This document shows positions 9,643 through 41,227 of a stretch of 64,000 nt of DNA, piece after piece (position 1 is the stretch's first letter; each line of letters starts with the position of its first letter). The position numbers and the translations under genes are program-made. Below the pieces are notes generated by a model, which worked only from the letters and a program-made list of their open reading frames with translations, searched no databases and had not been told where the DNA came from. The stretch spans positions 1,984,001 to 2,048,000 of the forward strand of contig NZ_CP100454.1 in assembly GCF_024228315.1 (NCBI RefSeq), written 5' to 3'. This DNA comes from Halomarina pelagica (GTDB lineage: Archaea > Halobacteriota > Halobacteria > Halobacteriales > Haloarculaceae).

Positions 9643-10182
9643 ATGCTAGAGGCCGTGGCTCGCGCCGTCTGGGCGATGCTCCCCGCGTACGTTCCGAACA
9701 ACGCCGCCGTCCTCTTCGGCGGCGGCCGCCCCATCGACGGCGGCCGGACGTGGAACGGGAAGCGCCTCCTGGGCGACGGCAAGACCTGGCGGGGGACGGC
9801 GGTCGGCACCCTCGCGGGCGCGCTCCTCTCGCTCCTGCTGAACCGCGTCGCCGGGCGCGTCGAGGGGCGGACCGGCTGGTCGCTCCCCCGGTTCTCTCTC
9901 CGCACCGGCCTCGCGCTCGCGTTCGGAGCCATGCTCGGCGACATCGCCGGCTCGTTCTACAAGCGCAGGACCGGCCTCGCCCGCGGCCAGATGGCCCTCG
10001 GCCTCGACCAGCTCGACTTCGTGGCGGGCGCGCTCGGCCTCGCGCGACTCCTCGCCCCGCGCTGGTTCGACCGCACGTTCACGCGCCCCACCGTCGCCGT
10101 CGTGCTCCTGCTCACGCCCCTCCTGCACGTCGTCGCGAACGCCGTCGCGTACCTGTGGGGGCTGAAGGACGAGCCGTACTAG
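9643..10182 (+). CDS. carS: CDP-archaeol synthase
   Basis: A 179-residue integral membrane enzyme transferring CMP from CTP to unsaturated archaetidic acid, forming CDP-archaeol for archaeal phospholipid synthesis. Family hallmarks are the N-terminal PAYVPNNAAVLFGGG, the conserved LLGDGKTWRG, GSFYKRRTGL and the cytidylyltransferase-like LGLDQLDF near the middle. Several hydrophobic segments follow. The ATG at 9643 is chosen because a TATA box precedes it at the right distance. The stop is followed within a few bases by the first copy of a hairpin repeat that could end its transcript. Confidence 0.93.
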   Translation: MLEAVARAVWAMLPAYVPNNAAVLFGGGRPIDGGRTWNGKRLLGDGKTWRGTAVGTLAGALLSLLLNRVAGRVEGRTGWSLPRFSLRTGLALAFGAMLGDIAGSFYKRRTGLARGQMALGLDQLDFVAGALGLARLLAPRWFDRTFTRPTVAVVLLLTPLLHVVANAVAYLWGLKDEPY

Positions 10183-10183
10183 A

Positions 10184-10456
10184 CCACCTTTTGCTGCGGT
10201 CGTGTGCGGCCGACCCGCTTCGCGGTCGGCCGCGACTCCCTGGCAAAAGCTGGATCAAAACCGCGCCTCACCCTCTCAGTCGCTCCGCTCCTTCGAGGGA
10301 TTCGGCGCGTCCGCTCGCTCGTTTCACTCGCTCGCGGTACGGTGCGCTGGCGTCGGCAGTAATGAACTCGATCTACCGTCCGTACCTTTATACCGGAGAA
10401 CGGGACCAGAGGCTCCCGTGACGTGACGTTCGTCGCGGGGCGCTTCGCGGTTGCCC
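10184..10456 (+). repeat. Mosaic hairpin repeat, copy 1
   Basis: This copy starts with CCACCTTTTGCTGCG. It then has an outer inverted pair CTTTTGC (10188-10194) and GCAAAAG (10243-10249), enclosing a perfect 9-bp stem (GCGGCCGAC at 10206-10214 with GTCGGCCGC at 10225-10233). The 10-nt loop ends in CGCTTCGCG. Downstream come GGCGCGTCCGCTCGCTCG, GCGCTGGCGTCGGC, and a TTTATACCGGAGAACGGGA block near 10387. It begins 2 bp after the carS stop. Confidence 0.8.
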
Positions 10457-10780
10457 GCCACCTTTTGCTGCGCTCGCCCGCCAGCGACACGCTTCGCGGT
10501 CGCTGGCGGCTCGCTGGCAAAAGCTGGATCAAAAGCCAGCGTCACCTCCTCGGGCACTCGCTTCGCTCGCGCCCTCGAAGGTTCCTTGGCCCGCTCGCTC
10601 CCTTCGGTCGCTCGCGGCTGCTGCGCTGGCGTCGGCGGTGGTGGGCCGGGCCGGTCGTCCCGTCCGTACTTTTATAACGGAGAGCGGGACCAGAGGCTCC
10701 CGTGACGTAACGTCCGTCGCGGGGTGCCTGCGGTTGTGCGACGCCACGCCCCGCGAGCAGCGCCGCGGCGTCGCCTGCAC
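10457..10780 (+). repeat. Mosaic hairpin repeat, copy 2
   Basis: It has the same order of blocks as copy 1. The outer pair is CTTTTGC (10462-10468) and GCAAAAG (10517-10523). The inner stem is a perfect 11 bp (CCGCCAGCGAC at 10478-10488 with GTCGCTGGCGG at 10499-10509) around the same 10-nt loop ending CGCTTCGCG. The inner stem sequence differs from copy 1 in both arms, yet pairing is kept. A TTTTATAACGGAGAGCGGGA block follows at 10670. Confidence 0.8.
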
Positions 10781-10980
10781 GCCCACGTTTTACTGTGCTC
10801 CCTCGCGCTCGCTTCGCTCGCGCTCGGTCGCTGGCAAAACCTGGACCAAAACCGCGCCTCACTCCCATCGCCGGACTCGCGGTGCTCGTCCGGCGTGCTC
10901 CCGCTCGCCTCCGGCTCGCGGGAACTGCGGTCGTTCGGCGCGTCCGCTCGTTCGGCCGTCGGCCTCACTCGCGGGTGCGT
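10781..10980 (+). repeat. Mosaic hairpin repeat, copy 3 (partial)
   Basis: It starts CCCACGTTTTACTGTGC and has the GGCAAAACCTGGACCAAAAC block and the GGCGCGTCCGCTCG block, but lacks the terminal TTTTATAACGG block. The central stem is lost, so this copy looks decayed. With the upstream part of copy 2 it is closely matched by the inverted copy at 40.7-41.0 kb. Confidence 0.75.
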
Positions 10981-11092
10981 AACACCGCGCCCCGCGACAG
11001 ACCCCGACCGGCGTCGCCTGTTCGCCACTCCCGTCCTCGTAGAGCGACGGCGACACTTACACGCTTTTGGCCGTCCGCCGGGCAGGACCGGT

Positions 11093-40546: not shown

Positions 40547-41227
40547 GGGGGCGGCGTTTCGACTGGAGAGTACGGAACGCGACGACGGTTCCCGCGCACC
40601 CGAACGCGAGAGCGCAGGGGAAACCGACCGCGGGAACCCTCCGGCGAGCGACCGAGACGAGGGGAGCCGAACGAGGAGCGGTCGGTTCCGCGTCCGCAAC
40701 CGCGAGCGAGGCCGACGGCCGAGCGAGCGGACGTGCCGAACCTCCCGAGTGAAGCGAGGGGGTGAGGCTCGGTCTTAGTCGAGGTTTTGCCGGCGATCGA
40801 GCGCGAGCGAAGCGAGCGCAGTAAACGGTGGGCGTGCAGGCGACGCCGCGGCACTGCTCGCGGGGCGTGGCGTCGCACAACCGCGAGCGCCCCGCGACGG
40901 ACGTTACGTCACGAGGGGCTCTGGTCCCGCTCTCCGTTATAAAAGTACGGACGGGGACGACTGGCCCGGTCCACCACCGCCGACGCCAGCGCGGCACCCG
41001 CGAGCGAGTGTAGCGAGCGAGCGGACGCGCCGAACCCCCGAGCGAAGCGAGGGGATGAGGCGCGGTCTTAGTCGAGGTTTTACACACGATTGTGCGCATC
41101 GCGTACGTATCTCTGACCCTCCTCGGAGAGGTCTTCGCGCAGGAGGACACGGTGTTTCTCGTCGGGGAGGCGGGGTCGCGCTCGGGCGTTTGCAAAGTTT
41201 AACCGTGCGCCCCACAAACGGGGGGAC
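40547..41227. other. Gene-free region carrying inverted mosaic repeats and the aIF1A promoter
   Basis: Between the Orc1/Cdc6 gene and aIF1A there is no credible gene. About 390 bp of it is an inverted copy of the 10.2-11.0 kb mosaic repeat, described separately. The last 130 bp contains the CAAAGTTTAACC promoter-like element upstream of aIF1A. Confidence 0.75.
40680..41090 (-). repeat. Mosaic repeat, inverted copies 4 and 5
   Basis: Read on the minus strand from 41090 down, the order is TAAAACCTCGACTAAGACC, GGCGCGTCCGCTCGCTCG, GCGCTGGCGTCGGCGGTGG, the TTTTATAACGGAGAGCGGGA block (about 40925-40945), GTGCGACGCCACGCCCCGCG, GTTTACTGCGCTCGC and a second AAAACCTCGACTAAGACC block. Order and sequence closely follow 10,623-10,978 on the plus strand, giving an inverted repeat pair of over 300 bp, 30 kb apart. 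The central hairpin is degenerate, as in copy 3. Confidence 0.78.

Follow-up and report, generated by a model that had tools for sequence, protein, structure and literature searches.

A bacterial two-codon minigene, in which a start codon is followed by one sense codon and a stop codon, has reportedly been found in axe-txe. H-type pseudoknots, with two crossing helices and short loops near a decoding site, occur in regulatory RNAs that include riboswitches and frameshift elements. To our knowledge, few structured RNA families have been described from archaea, and we know of none there that couples an obligatory two-codon frame to a pseudoknot. At gene ends, REP elements represent numerous extragenic palindromes close to stop codons, with variable stems and behind unrelated genes. 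Those of E. coli located ≤15 nt from a stop have been reported to stall ribosomes and to lower translation (PMC12306157). T-stretches and hairpins both work as terminators in Haloferax volcanii (PMC7237163).

The locus analyzed here contains two alternating elements, A and B. Our preferred reading, to which we assign a probability of roughly 0.55, is that A is a stop-proximal gene-end hairpin and that B specifies a leaderless two-codon RNA whose pseudoknot would abut the initiating ribosome. B shares the start codon, the single codon and the stop codon with the bacterial minigenes, but its ORF, predicted to be leaderless and to lie at the 5' end of the RNA, is joined to a pseudoknot that covaries, and it recurs across many genera within one archaeal order.

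The window, i.e., the whole 64-kb stretch of DNA that was analyzed, is part of a haloarchaeal chromosome and covers positions 1984001–2048000 of contig C1 in a genome of 4.6 Mb with seven contigs (G000). The elements follow the end of a CarS-like gene, whose stop codon is located 1 nt 5' of the first hairpin, and are arranged between 10184 and 11025 in the order A, truncated B, A, B, A and half B; a second array is present on the minus strand. The features are as follows:

9643–10182, plus strand: CDP-archaeol synthase gene (CarS-like; Pfam PF01864, E 9.3e-46), first gene 5' of the array, stop codon TAG at 10180–10182
10184–10260, plus strand: A copy 1, hairpin 10184–10253 with trailing ATCAAAA; foot CCA/TGG, C.C mismatch, outer arms CTTTTGC/GCAAAAG, variable inner stem
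10261–10360, plus strand: conserved 3' part of A copy 1, CTCACC to GGATTCGGCGCGTCCGCTCG, with more GC-rich inverted repeats; direct repeats shared with copy 2 and genome copies
10376–10457, plus strand: B copy 1, truncated, with TTTATA at 10387–10392, GTG ACG TGA at 10418–10426 and the first pseudoknot arm only (nhmmer, model positions 4–84)
10458–10534, plus strand: A copy 2, hairpin 10458–10527 with trailing ATCAAAA (folding, pattern search)
10535–10640, plus strand: conserved 3' part of A copy 2 with inverted repeats; direct repeats shared with copy 1 and genome copies
10659–10783, plus strand: B copy 2, complete (covariance model 135.1 bits, E 4.6e-31 in the own genome; nhmmer)
10671–10676, plus strand: TATA box of B copy 2, TTTATA, 31 nt 5' of GTG
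10702–10710, plus strand: predicted two-codon leaderless ORF of B copy 2, GTG ACG TAA (start-NNN-stop in own-genome copies)
10717–10726, plus strand: 5' arm of pseudoknot helix 1 of B, pairing with 10747–10756 (pair counts)
10738–10745, plus strand: 5' arm of pseudoknot helix 2 of B, pairing with 10767–10774 (pair counts)
10747–10756, plus strand: 3' arm of helix 1 (pair counts)
10767–10774, plus strand: 3' arm of helix 2, followed by the conserved tail CTG to CGC at 10775–10783
10783–10851, plus strand: A copy 3, hairpin 10783–10844 with trailing ACCAAAA (pattern search)
10968–11025, plus strand: B copy 3, 3' half without promoter (nhmmer, model positions 71–130, E 9.4e-5)
40700–41026, minus strand: second A-B array of the window, with the A 3' motif at 40789 and mid repeats at 41026 and 40732
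40832–40955, minus strand: B copy of the second array, L010 (nhmmer; covariance model 136.5 bits)

A sequence-only reading of this DNA had described the element at 10184–10780, but its occurrence goes beyond these coordinates, to the third hairpin, the minus-strand array and the other matches among the 67 in the genome. Half B copies without promoter occur within arrays not only at 10968–11025 but also at L027, L037 and L053, and their junction TCGCGGGTGC suggests that the sequence between short repeats of A and of B was deleted. The tails of B copies that are followed by an A, e.g., at 10775–10783, often read CTGCACGCC, and those of terminal B copies mostly CTGTTCGCC or CTGTCCGCC.

The first two A hairpins had been described as sharing identical outer arms around inner stems that differ and yet pair exactly, and this was borne out: GCGGCCGAC is exactly complementary to GTCGGCCGC in copy 1 and CCGCCAGCGAC to GTCGCTGGCGG in copy 2, both enclosing CGCTTCGCG. 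Both copies folded better than 200 of 200 shuffled sequences (z-scores of −3.69 and −4.89), and the stem is longer than first described, with CCA at 10184–10186 pairing with TGG at 10251–10253 outside a fixed C.C mismatch. A pattern search allowing up to three mismatches recovered 57 A copies from the own genome (reversed control, 1), and a looser scan of own-genome stretches for the 3' motif of A yielded the 67 matches, 61 of them with TTTT/AAAA arms. Pairing was counted in these 61, leaving out the six copies without a TTTT arm. The foot triplets were CCA/TGG in 43 copies, CGA/TCG in 10, GCA/TGC and GGA/TCC in three each, and broken in two. Foot pairs 1 and 2 are Watson-Crick pairs in 61 and 60 of the 61 copies, respectively, compared to shuffle means of 50.2 and 40.0. 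This agrees with the selection on pairing proposed earlier, and the unpaired, drifting stems that would have spoken against it were not seen among the genomic copies. The adjacent C.C mismatch is left unpaired in 60 of 61 copies, and a mismatch held constant next to a triplet that covaries speaks for the shape itself being under selection. The inner stems comprise 56 distinct sequences with a mean duplex energy of −21.1 kcal/mol with their own arms vs. −13.3 kcal/mol with swapped arms. The own arm was the best partner in only 13 of the 56 (median rank 2) because several copies share similar stems. Taken across copies, these counts support the view that the A stems are kept for pairing and not for sequence. 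A symmetric mismatch count gave three G-U and five A-C cases in the inner stems, showing no asymmetry, and the minus strand folds better by energy in 54 of 61 copies, which together fit a simple role as sense RNA poorly. In five copies (L039, L016, L012, L028 and L021), the 5' unit of A, CCACCTTTTNCNNCG, is tandemly repeated before the hairpin without a matching 3' arm. Some arrays (L015, L018, L022, L037 and L053) contain an insertion of two short hairpins side by side, whose stems differ, e.g., ACCGGAACGCGGCGCGTTCCGGT followed by TCACGAGCGTTCCACTCTCGTGA; this is reminiscent of double-hairpin elements.

Using a codon-usage script, we found a same-strand stop codon ≤37 nt upstream of 36 of the 67 A copies, and ≤6 nt upstream of 26 of these. 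Another 14 of the 67 follow a B, and 17 were placed by the script after neither, five of which show a stop codon just upstream by eye; the remaining dozen or so mostly have a minus-strand gene upstream. Most stop-adjacent copies carry TTTT a few nt past the stop, like the T run of an intrinsic terminator. The upstream genes code for unrelated proteins, such as a cation efflux protein, RadA/Rad51, aRF1, PhoU, a TFIIS-like protein and CarS. A role of A as a regulon mark was rejected, as the 20 upstream proteins scanned (out of 36 stop-adjacent ones) fell into unrelated families, with three giving no hit. All 67 copies are located on the 3.54-Mb contig, none before position 427,000, and none was found on the other six contigs (about 1.06 Mb). 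Of 59 related genomes, 12 contained the exact A arm pattern, representing seven of 42 genera (reversed control, 0). In a public genome collection, 25 of the 27 stretches with the exact pattern were haloarchaeal (Halomarina, Halorussus, Halolamina, Halegenticoccus), with most matches among named genomes in Halomarina halobia, and the other two belonged to bacterial MAGs and showed no evident hairpin.

This placement is compatible with A acting as a bidirectional terminator, with T4 runs ahead of the hairpin on either strand that would terminate the transcripts of the gene as well as opposing ones, a possibility to which we give somewhat less than even odds. As in the terminators of Haloferax volcanii, a T run past the stop adjoins a hairpin; T4 follows right after the stop, two T4 runs are present on the other strand, the CCACCTTTT unit is repeated before the hairpin in some copies, and the position after B is one a terminator would take. 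However, on each strand the T runs of A lie upstream of the hairpin instead of following it, the conserved foot triplet is not needed by a terminator, a long 3' part of about 100 nt is conserved as well, and the dozen copies behind neither a same-strand stop nor a B do not fit.

Alternatively, A may be a haloarchaeal REP-like palindrome in the 3' UTR, slowing or protecting at the end of translation, which we regard as conceivable but rather doubtful. The likeness consists of many extragenic palindromic copies with variable stems behind unrelated genes, part of them ≤15 nt from a stop and thus within the range reported for the stalling E. coli REPs. The T4/A4 arms and the fixed C.C mismatch are not known to us as REP features, the foot triplet of A covaries in four forms, the mismatch counts show no strand asymmetry, and A, unlike REPs, alternates with the RNA gene B.

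B begins at the TTTTATAACGG block and contains, in this order, a TATA box, a conserved CCA, a start codon, one codon, a stop codon and an H-type pseudoknot. An alignment of 35 own-genome copies (A1), from which L051 with its long insertion, one of 36 full-length copies, and the truncated copies were left out, revealed two crossing helices, formed by columns 61–70 with 92–101 and 83–90 with 119–126, respectively. In A1, 99.5% of 630 cells were paired, and both sides had changed in eight of 18 pairs, compared to 1.1 after shuffling. A second alignment (A3) consisted of 93 distant copies from 33 genomes, 24 genera and nine families (by the tool's labels), namely the 33 loci L111–L143 plus 60 chosen from the listed hits, excluding weaker hits and the genomes G000 and G004. 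For helix 1, 95.8% of 920 cells in A3 were paired vs. 66.7% in shuffled and 39–47% in slid controls, with 220 doubly changed cells vs. 44.5 shuffled; these counts lean towards the model because A3 was fitted to one containing helix 1. For helix 2, which is outside the search model, 91.1% of 719 cells were paired vs. 80.0% in shuffled and 25–43% in slid controls, with 107 doubly changed cells vs. 37.3 shuffled. Using a strand-neutral choice of arms, helix 1 showed 30 G-U vs. five A-C combinations, indicating that the sense strand of B is the structured one. Because helix 1 and the model-independent helix 2 both covary, with compensatory changes across lineages and on one strand, the assignment of B as a predicted structured RNA of about 95 nt is well supported. 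Thermodynamic folding with a program that does not handle pseudoknots did not favour the sense strand: it was the more stable of the two strands in 10 of 35 copies of the own genome and in 47 of the 93 distant ones. A third helix, pairing GCG with the CGC of the tail, was rejected since it showed no covariation.

The sequence-only reading had regarded TTTTATAACGG as a promoter-like block at the end of each hairpin copy. The promoter part of this claim is supported by the arrangement of the parts, as TTTATA is present in both copies, precedes a conserved start by 30–31 nt in 38 of 38 own-genome copies and is followed by the covarying pseudoknot RNA known from many genera, but the block belongs to B and not to the hairpin, and TTTTATAACGG itself is found in the second copy only, the first reading CTTTATACCGG (TTTATA at 10387–10392). 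The conserved start is part of an RTG-NNN-TRA pattern found in all 38 promoter-bearing own-genome copies of B, 37 of them scored by script and one with a degenerate TATA box by eye; GTG is the start in 36 and ATG in two, the stops are TGA or TAA, and CGGRACCAG is conserved between TATA box and start codon. A distance of 30–31 nt is the usual one between the TATA box and the start of a leaderless archaeal transcript. The start-NNN-stop arrangement is retained in 88 of the 93 distant copies (83 by one script plus five by eye; 88 by a second script) as GTG-TGA in 66, ATG-TGA in 15, GTG-TAG in four and GTG-TAA in three. The five others are L124 and L131 with ATG TGA, L161 with ATG CGC TGG, L140 with GTG ATC TGC, and L138 with none. 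Because the pattern admits three different stops and two different starts in place of a fixed motif, we interpret it as a reading frame. TAG, which is two changes away from TGA, occurs in four copies from three genera compared to a single TGG, and A at the second and G at the third stop position co-occur accordingly (Fisher p 7e-5, ignoring relatedness). The second codon is of 18 kinds among the 83 scripted distant copies, and this freedom argues against the dipeptide being the product of B. Counted from the first base of the start codon, helix 1 begins after 15–17 nt in 81 of 88 distant copies and after 15–16 nt in all 34 own-genome copies scored, a distance which, judging from footprint sizes, we take to be that between a start codon in the P-site and the leading edge of the ribosome. 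At L047, the upstream motif CGGGACCAG shared with B also stands before a protein-coding gene, about 300 nt past the A 3' motif on the minus strand; a short spacer separates it from the GTG of this gene, which reads by eye as a putative Cas4-type nuclease.

The distribution of B was determined with a covariance model restricted to helix 1 (R1), which at E ≤ 0.001 matched 37 of 59 related genomes, including the own one, representing 26 of the 42 genera; a re-search matched 31 of 32 genomes at E ≤ 1e-6. In a phylum sample of 100 genomes searched at stricter E, R1 matched six of 15 genomes within the order and none of the 85 outside it. The own genome contains 55 matches, G004 56 and G005 29, and the other matching genomes contain 1–15. 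No Rfam 15 family matched B in the 2 kb around the array or at eight distant B loci, with p27_CRE, bxd_2 and IRES_Bip appearing only below the threshold, and no description of A or B was found in open-access titles and abstracts, subscription papers being outside this scope. A plasmid origin of B was rejected after 72,556 plasmid records had yielded one partial hit of 35 nt (E 8e-3), as was a viral origin, since two viral contigs fit a loose pattern but not the B model. B appears to be a family of small RNAs that has not been described before and is distributed across many haloarchaea.

The genes around B were placed with the codon-usage script. A downstream gene was called for 92 distant copies; it is on the opposite strand in 64 of these and often ends <50 nt away from B, and the upstream gene has no preferred strand. 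B is therefore unlike the H-type pseudoknot regulators in lacking a consistently placed downstream gene to control, whereas it resembles them in its crossing helices, short loops and proximity to a decoding site. Antisense regulation of one gene class by B was rejected because the 182 neighbouring proteins formed small clusters of at most five members. At L124, L131, L138 and L158, B is flanked by homologous neighbours in several genera. A T run following B is irregular in other genomes (11 of 92, control 2) and occurs in 13 of 35 copies in the own genome, many of these because A follows. In other genera B occurs without hairpin A, and its context there points to stand-alone B as the common state; the A-B array would then be an amplification in the own genome and G004.

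Another reading is that A and B together form one non-autonomous mobile element of a MITE or PATE-like type, with stems kept by transposition or template switching and not for a host function, which we consider unlikely. The copy number of B does vary widely among species, and the end of the CarS gene, an orthologous site which we compared across eight genomes, carries A-B-A-B-A-B in the window, A-B in G004, a single A in G005 and an A-like hairpin in G007, with the array being absent from G006, G001 and G002. At this site, the inner stem of the first own-genome copy is wholly unlike that of G004. The G004 stem resembles the one in the second own-genome copy, which suggests that sequence is exchanged between copies. 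Moreover, one gene pair found in two genera contains B in opposite orientations (L129/L155). However, template-switch repair would presumably have mended the C.C mismatch too, the start and stop codons of B are kept together with covariation across the nine families, and at some B loci both neighbours are conserved across genera. Improbable in our view is a reading of RTG-NNN-TRA as a DNA motif, such as a regulator or initiator site, which would suit its promoter position, the strongly conserved sequence that follows, the mostly GTG starts and a weak, smeared complementarity of the start region to upstream bases as in an operator dyad, but not the three stop codons including the doubly changed TAG in three genera, the free second codon and the interchange of GTG and ATG.

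Returning to the gene-end hairpin and the leaderless two-codon RNA, A would serve as gene-end punctuation with a terminator- or REP-like action and most likely help to end or protect transcripts, also behind B copies, as a terminator would. The TATA box and the conserved CCA would direct transcription of a leaderless B RNA starting at GTG or ATG and continuing with the free codon, the stop codon, the H-type pseudoknot and a tail with the conserved sequence CUGUUCGC. A ribosome could bind the 5'-terminal start codon, make a dipeptide of indifferent identity and terminate, with the pseudoknot sitting at the edge where the mRNA enters the ribosome. In this view, B would act by ribosome occupancy, in the sense of protecting, timing or trapping, and not by its peptide; the occupancy could protect the B RNA, or serve to sense or hold free ribosomes. 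We infer the transcription start, the docking of the ribosome and this purpose; the comparison of copies itself shows pairing in A, a sense-strand structure in B, a codon-like start and stop pattern and the constant spacing.

Going one step further, B may represent a new class of ribosome-engaging RNA, whose pseudoknot docks 15–17 nt downstream at the mRNA entry and which, with one to about 55 genes per carrier, senses or tunes translation, a proposal we hold only tentatively and at slightly under even chances. If it is true, the survival of B RNA could, for example, be tied to ribosome availability, and the purpose of a two-codon leaderless message would become directly testable. Haloarchaeal genetics would gain a widespread multi-copy RNA to assay, and the A hairpins would offer dozens of natural arm-swapped, stop-proximal stems for measuring gene-end function.
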